Part shown: positions 3,941 to 35,271 of the stretch, piece after piece
Layout of the letters: each line of letters opens with the position of its first letter
How positions within the stretch are numbered: position 1 is the stretch's first letter
Origin: a virus
Length of the DNA: 37,300 nt
Virus record (IMG/VR): IMGVR_UViG_3300048838_001135
Location: 1 to 37,300 of that record
Strand: one strand, 5' to 3'
Position numbers and translations under genes: made by a program
Notes under the pieces: generated by a model
Databases searched by the model: none
What the model saw: only the letters and a program-made list of their open reading frames with translations
What the model was told of the DNA's origin: nothing

Positions 3941-5200
3941 ATGACACAACGCAATATTGCCGATAAGCAATTTTACTCATACGTCGAAACGAGTAAGGGA
4001 TCATCGCCATCATACGCCCAGCGTGTGACCTTTGGTGATGGTGGTTCGGTTGACGCATTCGCCAGATTGCGAACCAGTGTCCCTACGGTTGTTTTTGATT
4101 CTGCTGAATCGATCACTGCGCGGCAGGATCGCTGGAACAGTGCTCTTAGCGGTGGTGGTGCGATCACTTATGTCGCTGATAATGCCAGTCACCAGTTCAT
4201 TGTCGGTGCGACAGCAGGAGATTCTGCCCGTAGATCAAGCAAGCGCATGAACATTTACGTTCCAGGAACATCTATCCTTGTCCTGACAACGGGAGTTATG
4301 GGTGCTGGGGCTACTAATCAAAAAAGACGAATTGGATATTATAATACGAACAATGGGATCTTTTTCGAGCTCTCTGGAACGAACATGGGTCTTGTGAAGC
4401 GAACAAAAACAAGCGGCACAGCGGTTGATACCAGGATCGAACAAGCTGATTGGAATATCGACACGATGGATGGCAACGGACCATCTGAAATCGATCTTGA
4501 TTTTACCAATGCTCAGATATTCATGATGGACCTTGAATGGCTTGGCGTTGGCCGGGTGCGTTGTGGATTCGTCTTCGAAGGAAAAATCATCTACTGCCAT
4601 GAATTTGATCATGGCAATGAGCTAACAACAGTCTATATGTCCACAGCCAATTTGCCGGTTACGTATGAAGTGGTTAATACTGGCGCATCTGCTGCGAGCG
4701 ATGATTTCCGACAGATCTGTAGCAGCGTGATCATAGAGGGCGAACGCAGCAAATCGGCAGATCACAGGGCAGTTGATAATGGAATCATACCCGTTCCGAT
4801 CACCACCGTTGTTGCTCCTGTCATTTCATTGCGACTTCAGACAGCCTATGTCGGGGCAGCTGCAATAAAGCCAACGGAAATCAATTGTCTAAGTATTGGT
4901 TCGAAAGATGTTCTCTGGAAAATCCTGTACAATGCAACACTCGCTGGTGATAGCTGGACTACAAATAGCGGCATAGGTGCATTTGATGTTGCTGCAACCG
5001 CAGTTACTGGCGGCAAATGCCTCGCATCATGGTATGGCAGTTCCGACACGCGTGAAGCGTTGAAGGCATTCGCGGAACAAGATCAAATTGGTGGGTCAAT
5101 TGCTGGCGTTCCCGACACGTTAACCCTTGCCGCCGCCAACCTAACGGGTGTTACTTCTGGCAACGTAATTGGATCGATTGCCTACGATGAGATCTATTGA
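3941..5200 (+). CDS. Virion/tail-fibre-like structural protein
   Basis: The 419-aa product starts at ATG 3941 with AAGGAGAG upstream. It begins with a sequence like FGDGGSVDAFARLRTSVPTV followed by FDSAESI, a pattern (DAFGRLRxSxP...FDSK) I know from a widespread family of phage structural proteins annotated as tail-fibre or head-fibre related. The rest is beta-rich, with many Gly, Thr, Ala and Ser and no enzymatic motif. It lies apart from the main virion block. It may be a receptor-binding or capsid-surface protein. Its last 60 bases are overlapped on the other strand by the arm-binding-domain gene. Confidence 0.65.
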   Translation: MTQRNIADKQFYSYVETSKGSSPSYAQRVTFGDGGSVDAFARLRTSVPTVVFDSAESITARQDRWNSALSGGGAITYVADNASHQFIVGATAGDSARRSSKRMNIYVPGTSILVLTTGVMGAGATNQKRRIGYYNTNNGIFFELSGTNMGLVKRTKTSGTAVDTRIEQADWNIDTMDGNGPSEIDLDFTNAQIFMMDLEWLGVGRVRCGFVFEGKIIYCHEFDHGNELTTVYMSTANLPVTYEVVNTGASAASDDFRQICSSVIIEGERSKSADHRAVDNGIIPVPITTVVAPVISLRLQTAYVGAAAIKPTEINCLSIGSKDVLWKILYNATLAGDSWTTNSGIGAFDVAATAVTGGKCLASWYGSSDTREALKAFAEQDQIGGSIAGVPDTLTLAAANLTGVTSGNVIGSIAYDEIY

Positions 5201-5428
5201 ATGAAGCTGTTTTTTTGCTAGTTCAATTGCTGTCTTGAGTGATACCGAACGGCAATCAGCAATTGTTTTCAAGCATCTTCGATACTTTCCAACATGGTAA
5301 CGTATTATATACGTTTTGTTTCCGTTTTTGTACGAACGCACTCCAAATTCTGGAAAATCATCATCAAAATATACTTTTTTTGTAGGTGATGGCGGCAAAT
5401 TAGCGATAAACGATTCTGTTATTTTCAT
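5141..5428 (-). CDS. Orphan tyrosine-integrase arm-binding domain (DUF4102-like)
   Basis: Residues 1 to about 78 of this 95-aa product read like the N-terminal arm-type DNA-binding domain of P4-like integrases: KITESFIANLP, VYFDDDFPEFGVRSYKNG, TYIIRYHVGKYRRCLKTIAD and SLKTAIELAKKQL. The core-binding and catalytic (R-H-R-Y) domains of an integrase, about 250 more residues, are absent. The last 17 residues are read from the antisense of the neighbouring structural gene. It is either a remnant of a deleted integrase or a free-standing DNA-binding protein. The ribosome site is weak. Confidence 0.7.
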   Translation of the reverse strand: MKITESFIANLPPSPTKKVYFDDDFPEFGVRSYKNGNKTYIIRYHVGKYRRCLKTIADCRSVSLKTAIELAKKQLHSIDLIVGNRSNYVARSNTR

Positions 5429-10195: not shown

Positions 10196-10386
10196 TGGTA
10201 GTACAGCTAGAAATAACACATAAAAAAAAGACATTTTTAAAAGTCAATGTATATACAATAGTAGGAAAAGAACGATTATTTGATTGCGTTATGTCAGGAA
10301 CTATTCCTCAGATTTTATCAGAATTAGAAAAAAGATATGATGAACCAGTAATAATACAAAGATCAATTTTCTCCGGTTGGTATTAA
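10192..10386 (+). CDS. Hypothetical 64-aa protein
   Basis: The start overlaps the previous stop (ATGA, 10192-10195). The product mixes strands (VVQLEITHKK, LKVNVYTIVG) with a helix (IPQILSELEKRYD). Its coding sequence is more AT-rich than its neighbours. It converges with the caspase-like gene, overlapping by four bases. No family recognised. Confidence 0.5.
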   Translation: MMVVQLEITHKKKTFLKVNVYTIVGKERLFDCVMSGTIPQILSELEKRYDEPVIIQRSIFSGWY

Positions 10387-10934
10387 CCCCTAGGCACCAC
10401 TTTCTGAAGTGGTGTCGATGATTTCATGTAAAATTTCCCGTTGACCATTTTCTGACTTGATCGCGTTGTAAAACCAAACACAGGTCTTTTAGTCGCGTCC
10501 GAAATCCACTGGCCGATACACTCATCTTGCCTTTTGCCGTTCTGTCCGATCGTCTGACAGCCCCAAAGCTTGATCTCAGCGTGTTCAGCGAGCACGATCT
10601 GTCGCCAATCAGTGTCTTTCGTTATAAAGCGGCAATTGTCCGGTTTTTCTTCAGGATAACGGAAAAACACGTAAAGCTTATTAGGTCCACTATGGCCGGA
10701 GTAAATGAGCTCGTCACAGGGGCAGTTATCAGCCATTTCGTTAAACATTTGCTTAAGAGGGTTAACCATGTCTTTGTATCTTCTTGCATCGAAATGGATC
10801 ACATCTTCGTAGGGATGTTCTTTTTCATAAGTCAAAATATTATTTAAAAATGTGTCGGAATGTTTCCAACGCTGATTTTTGCCGTCATAAATGGTCTCAA
10901 GACCTACAATTGCTAAAACTCTCTTGATAGGCAT
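10383..10934 (-). CDS. Caspase/CHAT-like predicted cysteine protease
   Basis: The 183-aa product starts at ATG 10934 (GGAG 8 bases upstream). It begins with a strand KRVLAIVGLE. It then has ELIYSGHSGPNK with His81 and AEIKLWGCQTIG with Cys126, followed by GQWISDATKRPVFGFTTR. Strand-plus-'SGH' and strand-plus-'xxC' followed by a helix and 'xPVxGxT' is the layout of caspase-hemoglobinase fold proteins (peptidase C14, CHAT, DUF4347). If the His-Cys dyad is real this is a small protease. It is a single gene, divergent from the ParB-like gene. Alternatively the domain is non-catalytic. Pattern-based, no close homologue recalled. Confidence 0.5.
   Translation of the reverse strand: MPIKRVLAIVGLETIYDGKNQRWKHSDTFLNNILTYEKEHPYEDVIHFDARRYKDMVNPLKQMFNEMADNCPCDELIYSGHSGPNKLYVFFRYPEEKPDNCRFITKDTDWRQIVLAEHAEIKLWGCQTIGQNGKRQDECIGQWISDATKRPVFGFTTRSSQKMVNGKFYMKSSTPLQKVVPRG
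10395..10414. terminator. Hairpin at the convergent gene ends
   Basis: CACCACTT (10395-10402) pairs perfectly with AAGTGGTG (10407-10414) over a 4-base loop, at the junction of the convergent genes ending at 10386 and 10383. There is no T run on either side, so it may be a weak or protein-assisted bidirectional terminator. Confidence 0.4.
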
Positions 10935-10987
10935 ACGGTTATCTCCTATTCTTTGCATATAGTTATTTTATCAGCAGGAGACCCGCA

Positions 10988-11684: not shown

Positions 11685-12113
11685 ATGGTTAATAACGATG
11701 ATAGAAAAACTAAAAGAGGTAGGCCAAGAATTCATGATGAAAAACCACCAGAAATCAAATTTGCTGCAAAACTGAGCAGAGATTGGGTCACAGGTAAGTT
11801 GGCTGCTTTTTTGCGCATGAGTGTCGAAGAGCTCAAAGAAGTCACCAAGGATGATCGTCGTGATGCGATCGACTGGTGGGTTGCCAGAATCGTTGAAAAG
11901 GGAATCAAGAACGGTGATCACCAATCACTGGATTTCATGTTTAACCGGCTGATTGGCAAGGTGTCAGATCCAGAGGAGATTGACACAACAAAACCAATCA
12001 TTATCAAGACAATTGATGGTAAATGCATCGAGATGAAACTGTCAGAACCGCAAGCGACCAAAGATGAGGGAGAACCAAAAAATGAAAGCGAAATTGCACC
12101 AGATTCAACTTAA
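11685..12113 (+). CDS. Putative terminase small subunit
   Basis: The 142-aa product (ATG 11685 after AGGGAT) starts with a basic tail (RKTKRGRPRIHDEK). A helical core with RRDAIDWWVARIVEKGIKNG and HQSLDFMFNRLIGKV follows, then an acidic end. The 'xxLxFxxNRLIGKV' helix near the end recurs in small phage proteins encoded just before TerL. Small terminases recognise the packaging site and recruit the large subunit. Position two genes before TerL fits, but no clear HTH is visible, so the call is tentative. Confidence 0.5.
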   Translation: MVNNDDRKTKRGRPRIHDEKPPEIKFAAKLSRDWVTGKLAAFLRMSVEELKEVTKDDRRDAIDWWVARIVEKGIKNGDHQSLDFMFNRLIGKVSDPEEIDTTKPIIIKTIDGKCIEMKLSEPQATKDEGEPKNESEIAPDST

Positions 12114-12312
12114 GAATGAGGAAAACCCGTTTGAAATAGCCTCGAAAACCTACATCTATCTGCATGAATTAAATCCAGATCTCGCAAAAAACTGGCTCGA
12201 CAGATATCGCGGTTGTCGCACATCGAAGGACGTGTTAAAGCTGTCTGGTGAGTATGTCTCTTTTATTATAGATTCTGGCTACAGGAAATTTTACGATGAA
12301 AATTATTGCTGA
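12082..12312 (+). CDS. Hypothetical 76-aa protein
   Basis: The start is ATG 12082, with GAGGGAG about 9 bases upstream; an in-frame ATG at 12064 lies before this ribosome site. The product is helical, with NPFEIASKTYIYLHELNPDL and KNWLDRYRGCRTSKDVLKL, and ends FYDENYC. It overlaps both neighbours (32 and 17 bases), so it is part of the tight packaging operon. Not recognised. Confidence 0.55.
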   Translation: MKAKLHQIQLKNEENPFEIASKTYIYLHELNPDLAKNWLDRYRGCRTSKDVLKLSGEYVSFIIDSGYRKFYDENYC

Positions 12313-13255
12313 CATTGGTTCAAACTGGACAAGAATTGGTGATCTGCTTCTCGCGGCAGACATGGCAAAATGCTGTGACTGCGATGCCTTTAAGATCCAG
12401 TATTTTTCAGATGCTGATCTTTATGCTCCTGGTGCTGTAAGGCGCAACGACAGGCTTAAGAATACAATCGATCTTGATCTGCTTTGGCGACACTGTAATA
12501 GACTTGGCATTGAATTCATGGCATCGGTTTTCAATCCGGACGACATTGAAGACCTGAACCCATACGTTGAAAGATATAAGGTTGCAAGCGGTGAGGCAAA
12601 GCACTACCGTCTTTTAGAGGAGATCGCAAAAACAGCAAAACCAGTTATCGTGAGCACAGGATGTTACGATGATTTCAACTATCTTGCTGAAATATTTGAA
12701 CCAGATCTTGTGACGCTGCTTTATTGCGTAGCGGAATATCCTGCGAGACTGACTGATATTCGGGTTCTTTCGGACTTGATAAACAATTCACCGTTTAAGG
12801 TTGGGTTCAGTGATCACAGTTATGATCTTGTGGCAACAGCAGAAATTGCGCGAGAATATGGCTGCACAGTGTTCGAACGGCATTTCAATCCATCATATAT
12901 GACATCTCTTGAATCTCCAGATTCAGGTCCTCATGCATTAAACCCATCAGATATGGCCTATTATTGCCGCTATCTAAAACAAAAAGGATCTATTTTTCAG
13001 CCAGATAAAAACACGTATTTTAGAAGACGACCAATCGCCACTGAAAAAATAAGATGCGGTGAAAAGCTGGTTTATGGTCAAAATTGGGATTTTCTGCGGC
13101 CACAAAAAAAAGAACATGACGGCGATATTAACTGGGAATTTCACAATAAAGAACTATTTGCGCAACGCGAAATAGCTTTTGGCGAAAGTTTAAGTTGGAG
13201 TAATTGTGGAATTTGTACCGCACAGTCAGAAACAGAATGCAGTACTACTATCTGA
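12296..13255 (+). CDS. NeuB-family nonulosonic acid synthase
   Basis: The 319-aa product has the NeuB/PseI/LegI signature: ADIGSN (5-10), DAFKIQYF, YKVASGEAKH, KPVIVSTGCY, LLYCVAEYPA, GFSDHS with His174, and FERHFN with His196; these two histidines match the metal ligands of NeuB. Residues about 244-300 (RRRPIATEKIRCGEKLVYGQ to LRPQ) fit the C-terminal antifreeze-like (SAF) domain. The enzyme condenses phosphoenolpyruvate with a six-carbon amino sugar to give a nine-carbon acidic sugar. Length is near the family norm (about 340). It sits between the small terminase region and TerL and overlaps TerL by 50 bases. Which sugar (sialic, pseudaminic or legionaminic type) cannot be told. Confidence 0.88.
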   Translation: MKIIADIGSNWTRIGDLLLAADMAKCCDCDAFKIQYFSDADLYAPGAVRRNDRLKNTIDLDLLWRHCNRLGIEFMASVFNPDDIEDLNPYVERYKVASGEAKHYRLLEEIAKTAKPVIVSTGCYDDFNYLAEIFEPDLVTLLYCVAEYPARLTDIRVLSDLINNSPFKVGFSDHSYDLVATAEIAREYGCTVFERHFNPSYMTSLESPDSGPHALNPSDMAYYCRYLKQKGSIFQPDKNTYFRRRPIATEKIRCGEKLVYGQNWDFLRPQKKEHDGDINWEFHNKELFAQREIAFGESLSWSNCGICTAQSETECSTTI

Positions 13256-14516
13256 CAAGAAAATAACGATAGCAGCTACAGGAATTCAATGGGGCAAAAC
13301 CCTGTGTGGCGTTATGTCCCAGACGATCAAATATTTCACGTTCACAGATAGCCGTGATAATTTTTTGATAACCTGTCCGACTTATAAGATCATGGCACAG
13401 GCAACGCTGCCTGTTTTCAACCAAGTAATGGGGCCGTATGGAAAATGGGACAAGAAAAATGATTGCTTTAGAATTACCGGTGGTGGAACAGTGTGGATCC
13501 GTTCAGGTACAGACCCAGATTCTATCGTTGGTATTACGCGAATTAGATCCATACTGTGTGATGAAGCTGGCAAGTACACACGTTATTTTTGGGATAACAT
13601 CCAGGCCCGTTCAAGTTTTTGTGAAGCCCCAATCCAAATAGTGACAAGCCCATATTCGTTGAACTGGCTTTATTCTGATTTCATCAGAAAATGGCATCAA
13701 AACGACCCGTATATACGCGAACAATGCCTGGTTGTTCAAGCCAATAGCAGCGAAAACCCCTATTTTCCCATGAACGAATACATTCACCGACAGCGCACCA
13801 TGGAAAAACGAAGATTCAACATGATCTATGGCGGCCAGTTTGAACGTGCCGAAGGGCTCGTCTATGACTGTTTTAACGAGGAAATCCATGTCATAGATCC
13901 AATCGCAATTCCTGAAGATGCTAGGATCCTTTGCGGTGTTGACTGGGGCTATACCGATCCATTCGTTCTTCTCGTATTTGCAATCACAAGAGACGGTATG
14001 CGCTACATCATAGCAGAACATGTTAAAACTGGATGCCGACTACCAGAAATGGTGATGGCGGCAGTGCGATTTAGAGATCTCTATAACATTGAAGAATTTC
14101 ATTGCGACCCTTCACGGCCAGAATATATCAAAGAATTTTGTTTTCATGGTCTTATGGCGATGGGGGCTATCAACGACATTGAAATTGGAATCGAGGAAAC
14201 ATACACTCTTATTAAAAATGATCGTCTTAAGGTTTTCCGAAGCTGCGTAAACACAATTGACGAGGAATCGACTTATCATTATCCAGAACCAAAAGATCTT
14301 AAACCCGATCAGGATGGGAAAGATATGCTACCGGTAGACAGCAACAATCACTGCATGGACGCAAAAAGATACGTAGTGATGGCATCGGTTGATATCGAAC
14401 GAACAGTTCCGATAAAAAGACCAGGATATGATGAGAAATATGATTGGCAGATGCATCATGCCGATCGCATTAAAAAACTTCTCAAGAAAAAGAAGGAGTA
14501 CACGTACAATGCCTAG
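13206..14516 (+). CDS. terL: Terminase large subunit
   Basis: The 436-aa product is the ATP-driven DNA packaging motor and headful/end-cutting nuclease. The upstream FVPHSQKQ region precedes a Walker A-like GIQWGKT (26-32). Walker B is SILCDEA (Asp119-Glu120) and the coupling motif is TSPY (147-150). The nuclease begins at GVDWGYTDP with Asp246, continues with HCDPSRPEY, and ends with HCMDAKRYVVM. The start is GTG 13206 with GGAG 5 bases upstream; the Q-motif fit supports it despite the 50-base overlap with the NeuB-like gene. All usual motifs are present. Confidence 0.93.
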   Translation: MEFVPHSQKQNAVLLSDKKITIAATGIQWGKTLCGVMSQTIKYFTFTDSRDNFLITCPTYKIMAQATLPVFNQVMGPYGKWDKKNDCFRITGGGTVWIRSGTDPDSIVGITRIRSILCDEAGKYTRYFWDNIQARSSFCEAPIQIVTSPYSLNWLYSDFIRKWHQNDPYIREQCLVVQANSSENPYFPMNEYIHRQRTMEKRRFNMIYGGQFERAEGLVYDCFNEEIHVIDPIAIPEDARILCGVDWGYTDPFVLLVFAITRDGMRYIIAEHVKTGCRLPEMVMAAVRFRDLYNIEEFHCDPSRPEYIKEFCFHGLMAMGAINDIEIGIEETYTLIKNDRLKVFRSCVNTIDEESTYHYPEPKDLKPDQDGKDMLPVDSNNHCMDAKRYVVMASVDIERTVPIKRPGYDEKYDWQMHHADRIKKLLKKKKEYTYNA

Positions 14517-14907
14517 CTACCCATACGAATGCCCGAAATGCGAAAGCCAATTTGACGCATATAAAAACTTTGAGGATATCGATAGACTTGAAGAATGTCC
14601 AAATTGTGGTATGCTTTTGGATAAGGATTGTCGTAAGATAGCGCGTGTTTATTTCACAGGTGAAAAACCTTTTGACCCTTACTACTGTCCTGGCCTCGGA
14701 TCTGTCGTTACGAGCAAAGCCGAACGACAACGACTAGCCAAATCGCGCGGACTGCAAGAAGTTGGCAATGAGCCAGTAGAAAACATACATCGGCATTTCG
14801 ACAGTGAACGTGATCGAAAATGCGAAAACAGATGGAAAGAGTTTTCTGAACCGGTAACGCTGAGGAGCGATGATGGCGGGGATCCAGCAACAACAGACAG
14901 CTTATGA
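14509..14907 (+). CDS. FmdB-like zinc-ribbon protein
   Basis: The 132-aa product from ATG 14509 (AAGGAG upstream) opens PSYPYECPKCESQFDAYKNF and continues with ECPNCG, the CxxC...CxxC zinc ribbon of the FmdB family. The rest is polar, with a second Cys region (DPYYCPGLG). Such proteins are common next to TerL or portal in phages; their role is unknown, possibly in regulating late genes or DNA handling. It overlaps TerL by 8 bases and portal by 38. Confidence 0.75.
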   Translation: MPSYPYECPKCESQFDAYKNFEDIDRLEECPNCGMLLDKDCRKIARVYFTGEKPFDPYYCPGLGSVVTSKAERQRLAKSRGLQEVGNEPVENIHRHFDSERDRKCENRWKEFSEPVTLRSDDGGDPATTDSL

Positions 14908-16708
14908 CAGTCAATTTAACAGCGTCTCGTACGGCAATCCCGATGTTCCGAAAGAAGAACAAGATCTCGTAAAATCAATAATGCAAGAATTTTTCCGCTA
15001 TAAGCGCCATCGTTCTCTTTATGACAAACGATGGCTTGACTATTACTATCTTTTTCGCGGAAAACAGTGGTCAGCAAAGCGTCCATCGTGGTTATCTGGC
15101 GAAATCGTAAATATGATTTGGCAAACAATACAAAGTCAGGCACCACTTCAAACGGACGCTAGGCCCAAATTCTCGTTTTTGCCTATGGATCCTACCGACA
15201 GAGATTTTGCCCAGATTCTTGACAAAGTATCAGATGCTGATTGGGAACGTTACAATTGGCTGCAAGTCGTGCTTGCGACTATTCTTGATGGCTATTTGTA
15301 TGGCACTGGCTTTAGTCATATGCTATACGATCATGACTATAATTATGGGATGGGAGCACCGCTTTACGAGAACTGTGATCCTTTTTACTGCTACCCAGAC
15401 CCATCGTGCAACAATATCAACGATAGCAAATCCGAAGGTTTCTTTTACGCATACCCAGAGCATACCAATCGCCTACGTAGAAAATATCCTGCAAAAGCCC
15501 ACCTTATAAAGCCTGATATCGTTGATTCGCTTTTGAAAAAGCGCACAGATCTTGGTTCTGCCAAATTTAATGACTGGCGATCATCAACCGCACAGCTTGC
15601 AGCAATAAACTATGATGATTGGGACAATAATTGCCAAGATCGAACACTCGTTATCTATGCTTATCTCAAGCCACAAGATGTTGATCAGCAGGAACAAAAA
15701 ACCGTGGATGATGCTGGCAACGAGATCAACAAATATATCGTCAAGAAAAAATATCCGAGGGGTCGCCATTTAGTCATCGCAAATGGTGCCATCCTGCATG
15801 ACGGCCCACTGCCCTACGCAGATGGGCTAATTCCTTACAGCAAGTACAATAACTACGTTTTGCCGCGAGAATTTTATGGTGTAAGTGAGGTTGAACAGCT
15901 TGAAAATCCACAAATGGTTTTCAACAAAATCCTGTGCTTTGCTCTTGACTGTCTTGCATTGACTGGAAATCCAATTTGGGTTGTCGATTTCAACTCACGG
16001 GTTGATACCGATAATTTGACCAATGCCCCCGGTGGTGTTGTCAGTAAAACCCCCGGATCCGAAGTTAGACGTGAGCAAGGAATGCCTCTAAATCCAGGAT
16101 TCCTGCAAATCCTTGACCGTATGGTTGGCTGGTTTAATACCGTGAGCGGGCAAAGCGAATTTTCAGAGGGCAATGCCCCCGGTGGTGTTACGGCAGCCAG
16201 TGCGATCGAACAGCTGATCAATGCATCGCGGGTCAGGATCCGACAAAAGCAACGCAATCTTGACGCATATCTTAAGGATGTTGGTCAGCAATACATAAAC
16301 CGCATTTTCGAGTTTTACTCGGCACCGCGCGTTTTTCGCGTGACCAACGATCAAGGGGCTAGCCAATACTTTAAGATGGAAGTCGAAAGCCAAGAGGATG
16401 GCGGAAAAGTCGCTAGGGTACAGGAATATATCGAAACAGAAAATGGTGATGTTATTGAAGGCGATGTTCGCAAATTTATCGTCTCTGGTGAATTCGACAT
16501 TCGCGTTAAAACTGGTTCTGACATGCCTTTTGAAATTGCCGATATAGAAAGAAAGTCGCTTGCACTATTTGATCGTGGCATTATCGATGAAGAAGAAGTA
16601 TTAACAAAGTTGGAATATCCAAATAAAGACAAGGTCCTTGAACGTCTCGCTGCCCGCAAAGAGGCAATGGCACAGCAAGAGGCTCAGTCACAACAAGGAG
16701 CGCAGTAA
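14870..16708 (+). CDS. Portal protein
   Basis: The 612-aa product follows TerL and the zinc ribbon. It has features of podovirus portals: N-terminal helices (YKRHRSLYDKRWLDYYYLFR), SGEIVNMIWQTIQSQAP leading to the wing region, an early DGYLYGTGF, EQLENPQMVFNKILCFALDC before the stem, and APGGVTAASAIEQLINASR in the long crown-side helices, ending in a Gln/Ala tail. Portals form the dodecameric DNA channel at one capsid vertex. The start is ATG 14870 or 14873 after GAGGAG; the 14870 start gives MMAG. The size fits P22/T7-like groups. Confidence 0.88.
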   Translation: MMAGIQQQQTAYDSQFNSVSYGNPDVPKEEQDLVKSIMQEFFRYKRHRSLYDKRWLDYYYLFRGKQWSAKRPSWLSGEIVNMIWQTIQSQAPLQTDARPKFSFLPMDPTDRDFAQILDKVSDADWERYNWLQVVLATILDGYLYGTGFSHMLYDHDYNYGMGAPLYENCDPFYCYPDPSCNNINDSKSEGFFYAYPEHTNRLRRKYPAKAHLIKPDIVDSLLKKRTDLGSAKFNDWRSSTAQLAAINYDDWDNNCQDRTLVIYAYLKPQDVDQQEQKTVDDAGNEINKYIVKKKYPRGRHLVIANGAILHDGPLPYADGLIPYSKYNNYVLPREFYGVSEVEQLENPQMVFNKILCFALDCLALTGNPIWVVDFNSRVDTDNLTNAPGGVVSKTPGSEVRREQGMPLNPGFLQILDRMVGWFNTVSGQSEFSEGNAPGGVTAASAIEQLINASRVRIRQKQRNLDAYLKDVGQQYINRIFEFYSAPRVFRVTNDQGASQYFKMEVESQEDGGKVARVQEYIETENGDVIEGDVRKFIVSGEFDIRVKTGSDMPFEIADIERKSLALFDRGIIDEEEVLTKLEYPNKDKVLERLAARKEAMAQQEAQSQQGAQ

Positions 16709-17994: not shown

Positions 17995-18912
17995 ATGGCA
18001 GTATCAGTTGACCAGCTAACGGCATTGACCCATCGTTACATCCAGCCAAAGCTGCACGACAACATTTTCGATACCAATCCACTTTTGAACAAGATTCTCA
18101 AAAGCGGACAGTACAAATCACTTTCTGGCGGGACCACGATTGATCTACCGCTTAACTACGCGCAAGGCGCTGGCGGTTGGTTCGCTGGGGCTGATTCCCT
18201 CTTGACGAACGATGTAGAGAACATCTCGGTCGCTCGCTACAATTGGGCATCTGTCTATTCACCCATCGCTATTTCAGAAGAAGACATTCTGAAAAATGGC
18301 GGTGATGCTGGCGTTATCAAGCTTTTGGCTGCAAAGAGCCAAATTGCTGAAAAGACGATCAAGGATTTGGTTGGCACAGGTCTTTATTCCGATGGCACCA
18401 ACACAAAGTCTATCGTTGGTCTTAGAGATCTTGTCGCTGTCGATCAGACAGTTGGCGGTATCTCTCAGTCAACAAACTCATGGTGGCAAGCGCAAGTGGA
18501 CAGCACCACGACAACGCTGACCATTTCAGCGGTAAATACGCTGTATGAACTGGCATCGATCGACAGTAAACCGAATTTGATCGTGAGCTCTCGCGCGCTT
18601 TACAATTCGTTTTACAATCTTCTGCAACCGCAGCAAAGATTCTATGACGACACGACCGCAAAGGCCGGTTTCCAGAATCTAATGCTTAATGGCGCAGTGT
18701 GGATGAGCGATTCTCATTGTCCCGCTTATCATGCCTTTGGCTTGACACTTGAGGACATTCACTTGTTCTATCATCCAGAAATGAATTTCTCGACCGATCC
18801 GTTCCAGAGCCCAATCAACCAACGCGTCCGGACAAGCCGCGTCACTTGGATGGGATGCCTTGCATCGTCGAACAACCGTAAACATTTCAAGCTAAGCGCA
18901 ATAACCGCTTAA
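17995..18912 (+). CDS. Major capsid protein
   Basis: The 305-aa product is HK97-fold-like by layout. The N-terminus (DQLTALTHRYIQPKLHDNIF) and DTNPLLNKILKSGQYKSLSG precede the beta-rich part with SVARYNWASVYSPIAISEED, where many coat proteins have similar Tyr-Asn-Trp segments. DLVGTGLYSDG and a C-terminal region (RTSRVTWMGCLASSNNRKHF) complete it. It has the strongest purine-rich ribosome site of the block (AAAGGAAAGGAAAG). Place after scaffold and before a decoration candidate confirms the call. Confidence 0.87.
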   Translation: MAVSVDQLTALTHRYIQPKLHDNIFDTNPLLNKILKSGQYKSLSGGTTIDLPLNYAQGAGGWFAGADSLLTNDVENISVARYNWASVYSPIAISEEDILKNGGDAGVIKLLAAKSQIAEKTIKDLVGTGLYSDGTNTKSIVGLRDLVAVDQTVGGISQSTNSWWQAQVDSTTTTLTISAVNTLYELASIDSKPNLIVSSRALYNSFYNLLQPQQRFYDDTTAKAGFQNLMLNGAVWMSDSHCPAYHAFGLTLEDIHLFYHPEMNFSTDPFQSPINQRVRTSRVTWMGCLASSNNRKHFKLSAITA

Positions 18913-18934: not shown

Positions 18935-19408
18935 ATGAGTTTTAATTTCCCACCAAAGATTCTTTTGACTAGCCTCAGTGCCGTTGTTAGTGCTCGCAGT
19001 GCTAACAGCCCAGAAGTTGGCGACAGAATGTGGTACGAAGGAAAAGAGTACATTTACGTATACAATGAAGGAACAACCCAAGCATCTCCTGGCTACGGTC
19101 TAACACCCGTTGCCGCGAGTGCAACATCGCCTTACACTTGCACGGTGTCGTCTAACAGCGGTTCCCCGCTTGTAGGTGTTGTCTACAATGCTACGCTGAC
19201 CACTGCGACTTACGGTTGGGTTGTGAGCAAAGGCACTGTTCCAGTACTACCTGGTGCATCGTATGCCGTTGGAACCCCGTTGACGCTTGATCTTAACGGA
19301 GTTTTCGTCACTGCAATCGTTACGGCAATTCATTGCCATCAAGCGATCGCAACCGTAACCGGTGTGACTGGCACTGCTACCAGTGCTCACGTTTACGGCA
19401 ATCTTTAA
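18935..19408 (+). CDS. Capsid decoration or head-surface protein candidate
   Basis: The 157-aa product is rich in Ser, Thr, Ala and Gly, with short strands separated by turns (SPEVGDRMWYEGKEYIYVYN; VTAIHCHQAIATVTGVTG). The position after the coat gene is where decoration proteins usually lie, and the all-beta character fits. It is followed directly by the Maf-like glycosyltransferase, so its exposed Ser/Thr residues are natural candidates for sugar attachment. That last point is inference. Confidence 0.55.
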   Translation: MSFNFPPKILLTSLSAVVSARSANSPEVGDRMWYEGKEYIYVYNEGTTQASPGYGLTPVAASATSPYTCTVSSNSGSPLVGVVYNATLTTATYGWVVSKGTVPVLPGASYAVGTPLTLDLNGVFVTAIVTAIHCHQAIATVTGVTGTATSAHVYGNL

Positions 19409-19438: not shown

Positions 19439-20473
19439 ATGAGGACATCCAACATCATTCTGGAATTGCAGCCCTATACGAACCAGATCGCTTTCACGCC
19501 AAAGCAGATGTATGCTAATGCGTGTTCAAGCGATGCAGAAACGCTGAATCGTTGGCTCGACACTTGGTTGTCAAATATCTCTGAAAATCAAAAAAGATTT
19601 GGTCCTTTCAAGGAGAATTCTGTGGGTTCTCTTTGGAAATCCAAAGAGGGATTGCCCTGCATCATAGCCGGTGCAGGGCCGTCACTCACTAACAACATTC
19701 ACCTTCTGAAAGACAGGCCATCGTGGTTACCGTTAGTATCGTGTCTCCATTCTTTCCATGCCATGGAGGATGCCGATGCGCGAGTTGATTATTATGTCAC
19801 ACTTGATGCTGGTACAGACATTACGACAGAGGAAGTTACAGAAGGCGGAAAAAAACCAGAAATCGAGTACTGGGAAAAAACAAAAGAAAAAACCTTGATC
19901 GCATTTATCGGAACAAGCCCAAAGCTTATTGAAAAATGGCAGGGCAAAATCCTTTGGTATAATGCTCCTGTTCCTGGCGGCAAGTACAAAGACGAATGCG
20001 ATAAGATCGAACCGTTTAATTGCTGGGTAAGCAACGGTGGTCATGTTCTTGGTGCATGTTTTTACATCGCAAAGGCATGGCTAGGATGTCCGACAACGCT
20101 GTTTATCGGTGCTGATTTTGCGTTTTCAAATCGCGACAAGGTTCGGTTCCATGCATGGGACAGTAAATATGATGCGAACATCGGGCAGACAATCCGATGG
20201 GTTGATATTTGGGGCAATAGCGTTAAAACGTGGCCGAGCTATTGGAATTTTGCCCAGTGGTGGGCATATGTCAGTAAAACTTTGCCAGGGACCTATGTTA
20301 ATTGCTCAGAGGACGGTATTTTAGGCGCATTTCGCGAAGGAAATCTCGATTCAATTCAGCAAAAATCTCTGGCCGAAATGCTCGAAATTTATAAACTTCA
20401 TGACAGATTTGCGCATCAGGCTACAAAACCAGATGAGTTTTTGGATCCTGATAGCAAGTTTATTCTAATCTAA
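19439..20473 (+). CDS. DUF115/Maf-type (6-hydroxymethylpterin kinase MptE-like) glycosyltransferase
   Basis: The 344-aa product has the DUF115 signature: CIIAGAGPSLTNNI (74-87) near the start, YYVTLDAG (118-125), SNGGHVLGACFYIAKAWLGC (198-217) and FIGADFAFSN (222-231). Members include the flagellin Maf/PseE transferases of Campylobacter and relatives, which attach nonulosonic acids to Ser/Thr; other members are MptE-like pterin kinases. Here the Maf reading is favoured because the genome also has NeuB- and CMP-sugar-synthetase-like enzymes. It lies among head/tail genes, suggesting a virion protein as acceptor. The ribosome site is far (GAGG, about 16 bases) and AT-rich, so expression may be low. 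Confidence 0.75.
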   Translation: MRTSNIILELQPYTNQIAFTPKQMYANACSSDAETLNRWLDTWLSNISENQKRFGPFKENSVGSLWKSKEGLPCIIAGAGPSLTNNIHLLKDRPSWLPLVSCLHSFHAMEDADARVDYYVTLDAGTDITTEEVTEGGKKPEIEYWEKTKEKTLIAFIGTSPKLIEKWQGKILWYNAPVPGGKYKDECDKIEPFNCWVSNGGHVLGACFYIAKAWLGCPTTLFIGADFAFSNRDKVRFHAWDSKYDANIGQTIRWVDIWGNSVKTWPSYWNFAQWWAYVSKTLPGTYVNCSEDGILGAFREGNLDSIQQKSLAEMLEIYKLHDRFAHQATKPDEFLDPDSKFILI

Positions 20474-29732: not shown

Positions 29733-31124
29733 ATGGCAAGCCCAAGTGTAACCTATAATTTCGTTAACGGAACCGTGGCTGATGGTGATCAAGTTGACAC
29801 CAACTTTCAAGATCTGATCAATGCCATGACTGATGGAACAAAATCATTTTCGATCGATGCTCTTACGGTCGCTGGTGCAGCATTATTTAACGGTGCTGTG
29901 ACGCTAGGCAACGCAACTAGCGATGATGTTGTTGTGACCGGATATCTTGCATCTAACCTGATCAGCAAGACGACGAACACCTATGCGTTGGGATCGTCAA
30001 CTATTCTATATTCTGCCGTATATGCGACAAGAATACTTGCTGGCGATGGCACTGCCGCAGCCCCTGCATATTCGTTTAATAGCACTGATAATGGCGATAA
30101 TGGCATGTATCTATCAGCTGCGAACGAGATTTCCTTTGCAACGGCTGGGACGCAGAGGATGGTAATTGAAGCTGGCGGCTTCATTGGGATAAACACCAGC
30201 AATGCAGCTAACCTATTTCACATTGTTGGTAATGCTAATGCATATCCTGTATATGTTCAAGCCAACACCACATCAGGACAATCCTACGGCCCGATTATCA
30301 CTGCCGGAACAAACAGTTCTGATATGGCATTTCTGGTAAAGAATGGTGCAGATAGTGCTACATATTTTGCAGTTAGAGGAGACGGCAACGTCGGTATCGG
30401 CACGGCTAGTCCTGGATTCAAACTAGATGTTTATGCTGATATCGGCAACTATGCTGCAAGAATCTACAATGATAATGGAGCCGCCAAGGGACTATACATC
30501 TATGCAAAAGCAAATGACGTGGGCGCAACGCCTGTATTGATGTGTGAATCTGCTGGTGCAAGTAATATATTCGTAGTAAATGACACAGGCAACGTCGGTA
30601 TCGGCACGGCTAGTCCAACCTATCGCCTAAGCGTTGTCGGTTCTGCTACTGACGCTACTCCTGCTATTGAAGTGAACAACTCTAGTGATGCTACAAAAAT
30701 AACTCTAAACTGCAACGGCACGATAACAGCGGATACATCTGCCTGGGCATCAGCAGCTGGAACTACTGTAGTTATCGACTCGAATACGTTTAAATTACTT
30801 TCGTCTTCGCTTCGATACAAAACAGAGATTCAAGAACTGTCCAGCGAAATTGATAGCAGCAAGATATACGACTTACATGCTGTAACGTTTCGTTATAAGA
30901 CGGACGATAAGCGCACCCTTGGTTATATCGCTGAAGAAGTGAACGATATAATCCCTGCTGTCGTGCACAGAGAAGCAAAAGGACCTAACGGAGAAATGGT
31001 TCCTGAGAGTGTTGCATATTCTCTCTTGCCTGTCCTTATTATCGAGGAAATGAAAAAACAACAAGCCCTCATCCAGGCACTCACCGAACGCCTAAATAAA
31101 CTTGAATCAAAAATAGCGGGATAA
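29733..31124 (+). CDS. Tail fibre with C-terminal S74 chaperone domain
   Basis: The 463-aa product starts at ATG 29733 (AGGAGAA upstream). Residues 1-80 are beta-rich (TYNFVNGTVADGDQVDTNFQ). The middle has GNVGIGTASP twice, the usual repeat of trimeric fibres. The end has the peptidase S74 intramolecular chaperone: SSLRYKTEI with the Ser/Lys pair of the self-cleavage site, FRYKTDDKRTLGYIAEEV, and a closing coiled coil (KQQALIQALTERLNKLE). The domain helps the trimer fold and is then cut off. This is the likely receptor-binding protein; a terminator overlaps its stop. Confidence 0.85.
   Translation: MASPSVTYNFVNGTVADGDQVDTNFQDLINAMTDGTKSFSIDALTVAGAALFNGAVTLGNATSDDVVVTGYLASNLISKTTNTYALGSSTILYSAVYATRILAGDGTAAAPAYSFNSTDNGDNGMYLSAANEISFATAGTQRMVIEAGGFIGINTSNAANLFHIVGNANAYPVYVQANTTSGQSYGPIITAGTNSSDMAFLVKNGADSATYFAVRGDGNVGIGTASPGFKLDVYADIGNYAARIYNDNGAAKGLYIYAKANDVGATPVLMCESAGASNIFVVNDTGNVGIGTASPTYRLSVVGSATDATPAIEVNNSSDATKITLNCNGTITADTSAWASAAGTTVVIDSNTFKLLSSSLRYKTEIQELSSEIDSSKIYDLHAVTFRYKTDDKRTLGYIAEEVNDIIPAVVHREAKGPNGEMVPESVAYSLLPVLIIEEMKKQQALIQALTERLNKLESKIAG
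30384..30616 (+). repeat. Pair of 29-bp direct repeats in the tail fibre gene
   Basis: The 29 bases at 30384-30412 recur exactly at 30588-30616; both encode GNVGIGTASP. The intervening sequence differs. Exact identity within otherwise unrelated sequence suggests recombination or strong constraint on this fibre motif, and could allow fibre-length changes. Confidence 0.85.
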
Positions 31125-31624: not shown

Positions 31625-32524
31625 ATGAAATCTTGCATTATAACTGGCGGCACTGGAACGCTTGGCCGCGAACTAATCAGGCAGATCACAGTTGGAAAGT
31701 ATTTTGATCCTATAGTGGTTTTTTCGCGAGACGAGGCAAAGCATATTGAACTAGAACGTGAATATGATAACGTCCGTACGTTTTTGGGTGATGTTGTCCG
31801 CAGTGAAGACATAGGATCTTGCATAAGAAAATACCAGCCAGATACCGTTTTCCACTGTGCTGCGCTTAAGCATGTCGATCGTGGCGAGGTTCAGACAACA
31901 CAGTATATTAATGTCAATCTTAATGGCACGATCAACGTCACAAATGCATGTTCTAATTTTCGCGTTAAGAATATGGTTTTCTTTTCGACTGATAAAGCAG
32001 TGCTGCCAATAAACGCCTACGGTATGACAAAGGCGTTGGCTGAAAAATACATACAAAGCAAGTGGTCAGATGATGAAAAGAGCACTAATTTTGCTATTTA
32101 TCGCTGGGGCAATATTCTTGGTTCTAACGGATCTGTGCTTAAGCAGTTTGTGAAAGACATTATCGATAAGAAAAGAATCAAAATCACTCATCAAGATATG
32201 ACCCGCTTTTGGCTCACGATAAGCGAGGCTGTATTCTATGTGCTTAATAGCTATCTTGAACGAACGATCCAGCCAAGGATCTGCCCCACGATCAAGGCGG
32301 CAACGCTGATCGATCTTGCCTATGCTGTGGCATCTTGCCTTAGCATGGAGTACGATCTTGATTTCAAGATCACAGGGATTCGGCCTGGCGAGAAGATCCA
32401 TGAACATCTGAAATCTGATCATGATTTTTGCATCAGATCTGATAATGCGCCAAGATACAAAGCTGATGAACTAGAAGCAAAAATTAAATCAACGGTATTG
32501 GAGCTCGCTGGATGGCTAAAATAG
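31625..32524 (+). CDS. PseB-like UDP-sugar 4,6-dehydratase
   Basis: The 299-aa product has a Rossmann loop TGGTGTLG (7-14), FHCAALKHVD (76-85), the catalytic STDKAVLPINAYGMTK with Thr122-Asp123-Lys124 and Tyr132-x3-Lys136, RWGNILGSNGS, and DMTRFWLT. This matches the soluble FlaA1/PseB family that converts UDP-GlcNAc to a 4-keto-6-deoxy (often 5-epimerised) sugar, the first step of pseudaminic-type and related pathways. Length is slightly below PseB (about 330). Start ATG 31625 after AAGGA. All catalytic residues are present. Confidence 0.82.
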   Translation: MKSCIITGGTGTLGRELIRQITVGKYFDPIVVFSRDEAKHIELEREYDNVRTFLGDVVRSEDIGSCIRKYQPDTVFHCAALKHVDRGEVQTTQYINVNLNGTINVTNACSNFRVKNMVFFSTDKAVLPINAYGMTKALAEKYIQSKWSDDEKSTNFAIYRWGNILGSNGSVLKQFVKDIIDKKRIKITHQDMTRFWLTISEAVFYVLNSYLERTIQPRICPTIKAATLIDLAYAVASCLSMEYDLDFKITGIRPGEKIHEHLKSDHDFCIRSDNAPRYKADELEAKIKSTVLELAGWLK

Positions 32525-33171
32525 GAATCATTGGTGCTCGGGGAAATATGGGAACACGCTACGGTCTTATCACCAAGGCTCTTGGCCATGAAGTGATCGA
32601 AGTTGATCTAGGATCGTCTAACAGACCACTTTTGCACGATTGCGATGGGATCATCATAGCAACGCCAACGGCAACACATTTCAATCTGATCATGGAATGG
32701 GGTCATAAGCCAATACTTTGCGAAAAGCCTATCAGCAAGCATGTTGATGAGATCGATGCATTGTTCTCACAAAAAGAATGTAAAAAACTCAATGTTCGTA
32801 TGATCAATCAGTACGAATATTATATTTTAAAGCAAAAAGAATTTGAGAAGATTGTTAAAGACGTTCCTTATCGTGGTTTACAGCCTCAGACGTTTTTCAA
32901 CTATTACAAGCATGGAAACGATGGGCTGATCTGGGATTGCATAAACATCATTGGTCTAAGTGGAGGGTCAGTTCAGATACATGGAACTGGTTTTATTTGG
33001 GAATGCATGATCAACAACATCCAACTTTGCATCAGCGAGATGGATCGTGCTTATATCTGGAACATCAGAAGTTGGCTCAATAAATTTGACGAGAATCATG
33101 AGTATATTGTTAAAGCACATAAAAAATGCCATGAAATGGAGCAAAAACTAAAAAATGACTACAAGAGTTGA
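32512..33171 (+). CDS. Short Gfo/Idh/MocA-type oxidoreductase
   Basis: The 219-aa product has an N-terminal NAD(P)-binding GIIGARGNMG (5-14), GIIIATPTATHFNLI and the family's CEKPIS motif (Lys of EKP being catalytic). The C-terminal part (residues 120-219) is shorter than the usual 200-residue beta-sheet domain. Such enzymes oxidise or reduce sugar hydroxyls, often before a transamination. It lies between the dehydratase and the cytidylyltransferase and overlaps both. Substrate unknown. It could be a trimmed version that is still active, or one with changed function. Confidence 0.7.
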   Translation: MAKIGIIGARGNMGTRYGLITKALGHEVIEVDLGSSNRPLLHDCDGIIIATPTATHFNLIMEWGHKPILCEKPISKHVDEIDALFSQKECKKLNVRMINQYEYYILKQKEFEKIVKDVPYRGLQPQTFFNYYKHGNDGLIWDCINIIGLSGGSVQIHGTGFIWECMINNIQLCISEMDRAYIWNIRSWLNKFDENHEYIVKAHKKCHEMEQKLKNDYKS

Positions 33172-33874
33172 AATATGCATTCAGGCACGTAACAGTTCAA
33201 GCAGAATGCCAGGAAAAAGCATTAAGCCCCTAGGCGATGGCACGATCATCAGCTATATGCTGCAAGCGATCAAAAACGCAATAAACCCACTTCGCGGTGA
33301 TGCTACGGTTTTTAACTTTGATTTTGGTGTGAATTTGCTGGTTCCAGAAGACGAGTTTTCTGACTGGTCGTCGCGTCACAAAGATAATTTTGACATGATC
33401 TTTGGCGGTGATCTTAACAACGTATTCTCTCGGTTTTGGACAATTTACAATTTGAAAAAACCAAAATACGTTATGCGTCTTACTGCCGATTGCCCGTTGA
33501 TTCCGCAGCCAGCTATCAACCGATCGATCTATCAATGCACCAAGCATCGGCTTGATTATCTGTGCAATAGCTGGGAACATATACGCACAACACCGGACGG
33601 CCACGATGTTGAAATCATGTCGGCAGATGCAATGGAATGGCTGTTTAAGCACAATTCAGATCCAGAGGATTTCGAACACGTTACGATCGCTTTAAGAAAG
33701 CATGTTCCATCTCATCTCAGGATCGGAGTGTTACTGACAAAAGAGGACAATTCTCACATAAAATGCTCGATTGACACGCCACAGGACTTTGATGCTGTCA
33801 ACTATAGGCTTAAATCGAGTAGTGAAAAACGAAAAAAAGCAACGGAAATGGGGTTTGGAATCTATGACTATTGA
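33155..33874 (+). CDS. SpsF/CMP-sugar synthetase-like cytidylyltransferase
   Basis: The 239-aa product starts with the nucleotide-binding IQARNSSSRMPGKSIKPLGD (9-28), the family motif QAR-x5-R-x-P-x-K, and has DLNNVFSRFW, VMRLTADCPLIPQPAI and TPDGHDVEIMSADAMEWL. This is the SpsF branch of the CMP-Kdo/CMP-sialate synthetase superfamily, which joins CMP to an acidic sugar to make the transferase donor. It pairs naturally with the NeuB-like synthase. The ribosome site is weak (GGAG at 14 bases). It overlaps both neighbours. Confidence 0.78.
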   Translation: MTTRVEICIQARNSSSRMPGKSIKPLGDGTIISYMLQAIKNAINPLRGDATVFNFDFGVNLLVPEDEFSDWSSRHKDNFDMIFGGDLNNVFSRFWTIYNLKKPKYVMRLTADCPLIPQPAINRSIYQCTKHRLDYLCNSWEHIRTTPDGHDVEIMSADAMEWLFKHNSDPEDFEHVTIALRKHVPSHLRIGVLLTKEDNSHIKCSIDTPQDFDAVNYRLKSSSEKRKKATEMGFGIYDY

Positions 33875-35090
33875 TAACATTATGCTTGATCGTGCAAATC
33901 GGTGCATAGCCCAAGGCTATCTCACAAATTCTAAAAATCCAGAGACAGACATTTTTGGCGTATTCCCTACGCATTTTAAAAAAGGCAAGGGCTGCTGGAT
34001 CTATGACACTGAAAACGAAAGGTACATGGATTTAGTGTGCGCTCTTGGCTGCAATCTTTTTGGCTATGGAAATTTGCTGATAGAAAATCAAGTCACTGCT
34101 GATTTTGGCCTATGCCTTGGCGGTAGCACCGTGCATGAAGTCTATGCTGCCGAAGCGGTTAAGAATGTTTTTCCTTGGATTGAAAAGATCAAATTTGTAA
34201 ATTCTGGCACCGAAGCTTGCATGGCAGCGGTTAGGATCGCCAGATCTTACACTGGACGACCGTATATTCTAAGCCAGGGCTATCACGGTTGGTCCGATGA
34301 ATTTGTATCGCTTACACCGCCAGCCAACGGGATCAATCGCTTTTCTTCTATCTTTGAACTGCCGCAGGATTTTGATGATATCCCAGATGAGATCATTTCG
34401 AACACTGCGGCCATCATCATTGAACCTGTCATTTTGGACGATAGCAGAGCTCGCATTGAATGGCTCAAAAAGCTTCGGACGCTTTGCACAGAAAAAGGCA
34501 TTGTGCTGATTTTCGATGAAATTGTTACGGGTATCCGTTATCCAGATCATGCCGTAGCGAAGCACTGGAACATCACACCAGATCTGTTCTTACTTGGGAA
34601 AGCTATCGGCAATGGTCATAAGATTGCCCTCGTAGCTGGCCCTAGCGCGCTCATGGACGGCAAATATTTTGTATCAGGCAGTTATTTTGGCCAAATTACA
34701 TCGCTGCAAGCTGTGCGGGCAGTGATTGAACTAATAACAAAAAAGGCCAATCAATATAATATCAACGTTCTTAACGATAAAACAAAATATTTTAGAGATT
34801 CTTTTAACTCGCTTGGTCCTGACATTGTTCGCCTTGAAGGCTGGGGGAATCGATGCAATTTCGTTGGTAGCGATTACAATCTGGCTCTTTTTCGGCAAGA
34901 AATGATCAAGGCACGTTATTTCACTAAGACAACATTCCTTTCAAATTTTGATATTTGTGATCATTTTTCAGATATTCTCTATACGGCAAAAATGATATTA
35001 AGTCGCATTGCTCTTGGTGAGATCAAACTTGAAGGCAAGATGCCTGTTAAACCGTTTTCACAAGTTGTAAGGGAGAAAGCCAATGGATAA
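33864..35090 (+). CDS. Class III PLP aminotransferase (glutamate-1-semialdehyde mutase-like)
   Basis: The 408-aa product (ATG 33864) has the PLP-phosphate motif NSGTEACMAAVRIAR (113-127), GYHGW, IFDEIVTGIR and the Schiff-base Lys246 in GKAIGNG. It belongs to the acetylornithine/glutamate-1-semialdehyde branch, not the DegT branch used by PseC. It likely adds an amino group to a keto intermediate made by the neighbouring oxidoreductase or dehydratase. It lies in the sugar cassette, so it is probably a sugar-amine enzyme. The frame is open upstream to 33771, but that is inside the previous gene. Confidence 0.78.
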   Translation: MTIDNIMLDRANRCIAQGYLTNSKNPETDIFGVFPTHFKKGKGCWIYDTENERYMDLVCALGCNLFGYGNLLIENQVTADFGLCLGGSTVHEVYAAEAVKNVFPWIEKIKFVNSGTEACMAAVRIARSYTGRPYILSQGYHGWSDEFVSLTPPANGINRFSSIFELPQDFDDIPDEIISNTAAIIIEPVILDDSRARIEWLKKLRTLCTEKGIVLIFDEIVTGIRYPDHAVAKHWNITPDLFLLGKAIGNGHKIALVAGPSALMDGKYFVSGSYFGQITSLQAVRAVIELITKKANQYNINVLNDKTKYFRDSFNSLGPDIVRLEGWGNRCNFVGSDYNLALFRQEMIKARYFTKTTFLSNFDICDHFSDILYTAKMILSRIALGEIKLEGKMPVKPFSQVVREKANG

Positions 35091-35271
35091 AGTAAAATTG
35101 AAAGAACTGATGTTGAAGAAAAAAGAATTGGATGATCGTGCCGCAGCACTGCAAAAAGAACAGCTGGAATGGAACAAAAAGATTGTTCAACTAACGGGTC
35201 AACAAAAAATGAGCTTTGAAGATCTTCTTTTGAAAGTGATCGACGATGATCAAGCGGGGGTTCAGAGTTGA
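35083..35271 (+). CDS. Small coiled-coil protein
   Basis: The 62-aa product (ATG 35083, GGGAG upstream, overlapping the aminotransferase stop) is a charged helix (VKLKELMLKKKELDDRAAAL; QKEQLEWNKKIVQL) with a short acidic end. The next gene, a GNAT, starts in a 4-base overlap. It may be a partner or stabiliser of the acyltransferase. Not recognised. Confidence 0.5.
   Translation: MDKVKLKELMLKKKELDDRAAALQKEQLEWNKKIVQLTGQQKMSFEDLLLKVIDDDQAGVQS

Follow-up and report, generated by a model that had tools for sequence, protein, structure and literature searches.

The window, by which we mean the whole stretch of DNA analyzed here, is a virus record of 37,300 bases. Positions 1-114 are identical to 37187-37300, and on account of this 114-base direct terminal repeat we regard the window as a complete, circularly permuted genome. 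Its packaging genes are arranged as follows:

11685-12113, plus strand: small-terminase-like gene (by position), an open reading frame with a weak match to phrog_15125 of unknown function
12064-12312, plus strand: gene for an 82-aa protein of unknown function, an open reading frame overlapping NeuB by 17 nt
12296-13255, plus strand: NeuB-family nonulosonate (NulO) synthase, 319 aa, ATG start, PF03102
13206-14516, plus strand: terminase large subunit (TerL), GTG start, overlapping NeuB by 50 nt, PF03237 and phrog_2
14509-14907, plus strand: zinc-ribbon protein in the interval between TerL and portal, PF09723 at 22.9 bits, under the cut-off of 34.4
14870-16708, plus strand: P22-like portal protein, PF16510 at 122 bits

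TerL was recognized by PF03237 with 26.9 bits against a cut-off of 22, and phrog_2 was matched as well. Every junction from the open reading frame at 11685 to the portal gene overlaps (by 50, 17, 50, 8 and 38 nt), so overlap is the local style of this operon. A Shine-Dalgarno-like AGGA is located before NeuB (12283-12286). Promoter and terminator scans stayed near the level of shuffled sequence, with 25 promoter-like sites in the region against 18.9 expected.

A preliminary description of this locus had noted that NeuB overlaps its upstream neighbor by 17 nt and TerL by 50 nt, and the gene ends agree with this (12312/12296 and 13255/13206). The same description held that the shared bases encode both the end of NeuB and the beginning of TerL. 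This was confirmed, as the GTG at 13206 is the sole start codon open to TerL 5' of its FVPHSQKQ motif, that motif is encoded within the bases shared with NeuB, and a GGAG at 13197-13200, inside NeuB, precedes the TerL start. The NeuB residues encoded in the overlap (CTAQSETECSTTI and a few before) fall beyond the region conserved with the relative L003; this tail is outside the conserved part of the protein and is missing in L003. In another relative, L002, both overlaps are as long as in the window (17 and 50 nt), and in L003, where NeuB is 43% identical, the overlaps are 17 and 23 nt. The 82-aa gene shares 99% identity with its counterpart in L002 and 56% with that in L003, and both counterparts show the 17-nt overlap. 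Between the window and L002 the dN/dS was 0.09 for NeuB, 0.02 for TerL and 0.03 for the DUF115 gene described below (synonymous distances between the window and L003 were saturated and were not used). NeuB is constrained, yet it evolves faster than TerL and DUF115. The dN/dS of NeuB and the recurrence of both overlaps in L002 and L003 show that NeuB is not a chance open reading frame.

As an enzyme, NeuB matched PF03102 with 109 bits against a curated cut-off of 22.1, and fell below the NCBIfam equivalog cut-offs for both NeuB (TIGR03569, 93.3 vs. 399.65) and PseI (TIGR03586, 78.3 vs. 340.25). The best solved match of the window protein was the pseudaminic acid synthase 8h2c. A profile of 14 phage NeuBs matched 8h2c at 5e-57, then SpsE (1vli) as the second-best solved match, and also meningococcal NeuB. 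The clade profile aligns with the PseI 8h2c to near the C-terminus, and the window protein alone aligns only over 69-232. When 14 relatives were aligned, 16 columns were invariant, and among the invariant residues were K33, Q35, K95, S172-D173-H174, E194 and H196 (K-x-Q, SDH and E-[KR]-H). The aligned counterparts of H174 and H196 in meningococcal NeuB are H215 and H236, which we take to be metal ligands. In six dereplicated relatives (L015, L016, L018, L041, L045 and L046) NeuB is 248-250 aa long, and the three short NeuBs that were aligned stop before the C-terminal SAF/antifreeze-like domain.

The position of NeuB was compared among relatives by TerL alignments covering the best 80 of 85 viral loci, some of them already found earlier. 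The analysis comprised 83 rows including the window, and 81 after L030 and L031 (TerL identity 22-24%) were dropped as outside the clade. At least 1.6 kb of DNA 5' of TerL was available in 60 of the 81 loci, and 52 of these 60 have NeuB 5' of TerL on the same strand; with TerL clustered at 95% identity the figure was 41 of 48. NeuB was missing in L019, L040, L049, L056, L057, L070, L076 and L079. Ten upstream proteins scanned in six of these (L040, L049, L057, L070, L076 and L079) were of several other kinds, among them a TET-associated glycosyltransferase in L040. The 21 loci with shorter upstream DNA contained NeuB or part of it in 14 cases. The alignment of 14 NeuBs contained no segment conserved well enough for scanning viral sequences, and outside the TerL clade a limited survey of IMG/VR for NeuB gave one extra, weak locus (L010).

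It had been proposed to compare gene order in relatives and to see if NeuB turns up at unrelated sites. All 66 NeuB loci have the gene 5' of TerL, with none on the opposite strand. When entire contigs were searched, each contig with NeuB had it at one site only. The spacing of the two genes covers a wide range, with an overlap of 56 nt at one extreme and a gap of 1,723 nt at the other. Conservation of the overlap itself, also proposed as a check, was not borne out: 29 of the 66 pairs overlap (1-56 nt), 6 have gaps of 0-100 nt, 20 of 101-600 nt and 11 of more than 600 nt. Hence NeuB-TerL adjacency is conserved, whereas the 50-nt overlap is not. The argument that the overlap excludes a recent insertion was therefore overstated, since overlap alone is insufficient and its exact extent differs among relatives (of the dereplicated pairs, 22 of 51 overlap).

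For 47 dereplicated loci the NeuB and TerL trees were correlated (Mantel r 0.62; 0 of 2000 permutations as high) and shared 16 of 44 splits, where shuffles shared 0.2 on average and 3 at most. A branch with an SH-aLRT of 100 separates the 47 phage NeuBs from 15 other NeuBs, which make up a small outgroup biased to Prochlorococcus. The agreement of the trees, together with this branch, fits one old acquisition of NeuB and subsequent vertical descent, and is consistent with it within the small outgroup used. That NeuB is a long-standing resident of the packaging operon and not loose cargo, as had been suggested, is thus strongly supported, and it is the comparison (52 of 60 loci and the trees), not the overlap as such, that supports its resident status and its link to virion genes. 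The claim is tempered by one complete relative, G007 (L019), with identical ends of 119 bases, where NeuB is truly missing and the rest of the pathway described below is kept except for Gfo/Idh. One reading we offer is that the TerL subclade with short NeuBs and the NeuB-less G007 represent stepwise loss or replacement of the synthase.

The TerL alignments also revealed that the TerL frames of L022 (527-2737), L055 (672-2924) and L089 (4891-7073) are interrupted, directly behind the Walker A region, by in-frame inserts of some 340 aa. These inserts carry a LAGLIDADG-type homing endonuclease domain, and in L022 the insert ends with VVTHN, after which TerL resumes. The insert is probably an intein at the terminase P-loop. 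The TerL match of L082 also begins at residue 32.

NeuB is one of several sugar genes in the window. The others are found mainly in a cluster downstream of a tail-fibre-like gene:

29733-31124, plus strand: tail-fibre-like protein with endosialidase-type chaperone domain (PF13884), 5' of the sugar cluster
31625-32524, plus strand: PseB/CapD-like UDP-sugar 4,6-dehydratase, PF02719 at 243 bits
32512-33171, plus strand: Gfo/Idh/MocA-type oxidoreductase, PF01408 at 32.9 bits against 24
33155-33874, plus strand: cytidylyltransferase, candidate CMP-NulO synthetase, PF02348 at 40.1 bits against 22.6
33771-35090, plus strand: class III (glutamate-1-semialdehyde-type) aminotransferase, PF00202 at 119.6 bits
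35268-35798, plus strand: GNAT N-acetyltransferase, PseH-like, PF13302; TIGR03585 (PseH) at 47.7 bits, under the cut-off of 93.1

Dehydratase, oxidoreductase, cytidylyltransferase, aminotransferase and acetyltransferase thus follow each other in a row (31625-35798). The best NCBIfam match of the dehydratase was PseB (TIGR03589, 197.6 bits, under the cut-off of 407.75). The aminotransferase is given with a TTG start, and an in-frame ATG at 33822 is the likelier one.

To assess how widely this pathway is kept, profile searches were made in 22 genomes, i.e. the window and all 21 listed clade contigs with a length of 26 kb or more. The cytidylyltransferase and the class III aminotransferase were present in all 22, NeuB, the PseB-like dehydratase, GNAT and DUF115 in 21 each, and Gfo/Idh in 20. 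All of these genes share the strand of TerL, DUF115 being located about 6-8 kb and the sugar cluster about 13-26 kb downstream of it, and the order of those other than Gfo/Idh is constant across the 22 genomes. Separate Pfam searches of the 21 relatives found NeuB (PF03102, over its cut-off), DUF115, PF02348 and PF02719 in 20 each and PF00202 in all 21. A homologue of the open reading frame at 11685-12113 sits 5' of NeuB in 12 of the 22 genomes. G012 has neither the PseB-like dehydratase nor GNAT, and its cytidylyltransferase starts at base 922; G029 (28 kb) has neither the cement gene nor DUF115. Both sets of absences are probably due to cut contigs. Gfo/Idh is absent from G007 and G018. Exact terminal repeats of 114-127 bases were seen in 9 of the 22 records, 8 of which contain NeuB.

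The route itself is unusual. A DegT aminotransferase (PF01041; PseC/LegC-type) was found in none of the 21 near-complete relatives, and the only Pfam match of the window aminotransferase was PF00202, with no match to DegT. Neither a UDP-sugar hydrolase (PseG) nor a hydrolysing epimerase was present among the window proteins scanned, which were a subset of its open reading frames. With no DegT aminotransferase and no hydrolase identified, the route corresponds to none of the complete ones known.

The conservation of the pathway bears on the idea that NeuB is a metabolic passenger, located by TerL through ancestry only, with a product destined for DNA modification or stress and a position without meaning. 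The variable NeuB-TerL spacing (56-nt overlap to 1,723-nt gap), the absence of NeuB from one complete genome and its shortening in a subclade would fit this idea. We nevertheless consider it quite improbable, as the pathway genes are kept in 20-22 of 22 deeply diverged genomes and are under purifying selection where measured.

The remaining gene of the conserved set, DUF115, is located among the head genes:

17995-18912, plus strand: major capsid protein (MCP), phrog_9953 at 1.9e-49
18935-19408, plus strand: capsid cement or head-fibre-base-like protein, AlphaFold mean pLDDT 76 and Foldseek
19439-20473, plus strand: DUF115 protein with Maf-like fold, candidate NulO-protein transferase, PF01973 at 72.9 bits against 34.6

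The best Foldseek matches of the cement-like model were a Pam3 capsid chain and the base of the phi29 head fibre gp8.5, and other cement-type capsid proteins were matched as well. For DUF115, an AlphaFold model made with 13 sequences (pLDDT 83, pTM 0.84) superimposed on Maf 5mu5 with a Z of 20.9 over 249 residues, and Maf was its best sequence match too (E 3e-4). Sialyltransferases gave a Z of about 9 (CstII 9.1). The closeness to Maf and the match to sialyltransferases further speak against the passenger idea with its product for DNA modification; no DNA glucosyltransferase was among the fold matches listed, although one may still match beyond that list. Bacterial Maf enzymes are described as glycosylating flagellin and as having a three-domain architecture, in which the central domain (PF01973) is similar to CstII (PMC11339370). 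In the 632-residue 5mu5 chain only residues 238-517 were covered by the phage protein, which has 344 aa and is without the N- and C-terminal Maf domains.

PF01973 is also named MptE-like, and an archaeal HPPK matched the model with a Z of 15.0 (Foldseek E 4e-5), so DUF115 could be a pterin-type pyrophosphokinase that transfers no sugar, with a host enzyme performing the transfer. In our view this is very improbable: Maf is matched better and over more residues in the fold comparison and is the best sequence match as well, and DUF115 is accompanied by a CMP-NulO-type pathway in 21 of the 22 near-complete genomes.

Wherever both genes are present (37 of 37 loci), the distance from the start of MCP to that of DUF115 is 1,428-1,724 nt, and no locus with more than 2.5 kb downstream of MCP was without DUF115. 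In the window, the cement-like gene is located between the two. The Maf-like fold and the gene order point to a likely NulO-protein transferase encoded directly after the capsid and cement genes. This gives indirect support to the earlier suggestion that the sugar is used on new virions, as the Maf-like transferase adjoins the capsid genes in every locus that reaches there.

Alternatively, CMP-NulO and the Maf-like transferase could alter a host product such as flagellin, pilin or a surface glycan, for example to block superinfection, and not the virion. The flagellin substrates of bacterial Maf enzymes (PMC11339370) would fit this, as would the NulO-modifying enzymes of Acinetobacter phages, which are reported to act on the host capsule (PMC12053666 and PMC6586298). 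Against a host target, the transferase follows a capsid-cement gene in every locus reaching there, and all conserved pathway genes are on the structural-gene strand. A search of bacterial and archaeal genomes gave no relative of TerL, and this argues against a prophage of advantage to its lysogen. We therefore regard modification of a host product as unlikely.

Taken together, these phages probably make CMP-NulO and attach the NulO to their own capsid, with NeuB as a core gene of a clade-wide pathway. The PseB-like dehydratase, the class III aminotransferase and the acetyltransferase would build an amino-deoxy hexose from a host UDP-sugar, NeuB would condense this with phosphoenolpyruvate to a NulO, and the cytidylyltransferase would turn the NulO into the donor, CMP-NulO. 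The DUF115/Maf-like protein would then act in the cytoplasm, either ahead of assembly or while it proceeds, and move the NulO to Ser/Thr of the fresh capsid or cement protein. The location of NeuB between the small-terminase position and TerL suggests that it may be read with the packaging, head and other conserved pathway genes, i.e. late, and the benefit could be an altered particle surface that provides shielding, adhesion or stability. Counting against capsid decoration are the absence of NeuB from G007, its shortening in six relatives, its faster evolution relative to TerL, its scores under the equivalog cut-offs, the non-standard route, the two missing Maf domains and the fold shared with MptE-like kinases.

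The lineage is best explained as uncultivated, podovirus-like phages with a core NulO pathway. A more far-reaching proposal, which we put forward tentatively and hold to be somewhat short of an even chance, is that this is a family-level uncultivated lineage with obligately NulO-decorated capsids. The decoration would proceed by a non-canonical route (class III for PseC) with a minimal single-domain Maf-type transferase encoded next to the cement gene, would date to the clade ancestor and would be the viral equivalent of the sialylation of flagellin.

Phage sugar genes are commonly interpreted as auxiliary cargo that serves the metabolism of the host, and NeuB-like genes have been reported singly as viral auxiliary metabolic genes. 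In contrast, NeuB is here clade-wide and adjacent to TerL, accompanied by the remaining pathway genes and, next to the capsid genes, a transferase; the sugar genes behave as core genes, about as regular as the capsid genes and placed among them. If the capsids are indeed NulO-coated, this would mean sialic-acid-like phage surfaces, of relevance to particle stability, adhesion, protist grazing and recognition by animal lectins, and the compact Maf-type enzyme could be turned into a simple means of linking NulO to proteins.

The closest parallel is the Maf flagellin system of Campylobacter, Clostridium and Magnetospirillum, which likewise combines a NeuB-family synthase, a cytidylyltransferase, PseB-like and PseH-like enzymes and a PF01973 transferase encoded next to its presumed acceptor. 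It differs in that the present genes are phage genes, the presumed acceptor is a capsid or cement protein, the transferase of 344 aa is without the outer Maf domains and the aminotransferase is class III and not DegT. In Bacillus subtilis, the sps aminotransferase is DegT-type. The sps legionaminic acid pathway shares a NeuB-like SpsE and NulO surface decoration with the phages, and is unlike them a cellular pathway for the spore crust (PMC7439481). Capsid glycosylation by a phage is itself known, since mycobacteriophages glycosylate capsid and tail proteins (Freeman et al. 2023, as cited in PMC12619734). The proposed decoration would likewise be a phage-encoded glycosylation of virion proteins; phage glycosyltransferases are described for the mycobacteriophages, and here the sugar itself, to judge from the genes, would be a phage-made one of the NulO type.

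Neither NeuB nor DUF115 had a PHROG match. In 50,697 INPHARED records NeuB gave two weak matches only, the same two with the NeuB of the window or of L064, namely FPLJ01000048.1 (L228), a Moritella capsule contig filed as phage, and an unannotated marine Kyanoviridae record. FPLJ01000048.1 in the phage collection is a contig with a sialic-acid/capsule gene cluster of Moritella viscosa. DUF115 had no match in INPHARED, and no closely related isolate was found there; portal and MCP gave distant relatives only. In the open-licence PMC literature we found no report of NeuB by TerL, or of a phage with both a NulO pathway and a Maf-like gene. Prophage or host clues were sought in bacterial and archaeal genome contigs. 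TerL gave 39 pattern matches, none a relative by tblastn; for the aminotransferase, the best 80 of 159 loci were nearly all Prochlorococcus, with 22-31% identity, and none matched more than one query gene of the window.

Three further features were observed on the minus strand:

5141-5428, minus strand: lone integrase Arm-DNA-binding domain of 95 aa
7137-9675, minus strand: accessory acyl cassette of AMP-ligase, SDR, ACP-like protein and PseH-like acetyltransferase (Pfam/NCBIfam; the ACP-like open reading frame is without a Pfam match)
10383-10958, minus strand: 191-aa protein of unknown function, without a Pfam match, adjoining the acyl cassette

The AMP-ligase, SDR and ACP-like genes of the cassette were present only in the window and G002 among the 22 genomes; the query with its PseH-like protein drifted to the plus-strand GNAT, and that count was not used. 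The cassette resembles the acyl-tailoring genes of flagellin glycosylation islands, and it may add an unusual acyl group to the sugar. The adjoining 191-aa gene was likewise seen only in the window and G002 among the 22. The integrase domain is without a catalytic body (PF13356 at 25.1 bits, cut-off 27; phrog_1 weak), and is possibly a remnant of a temperate past.
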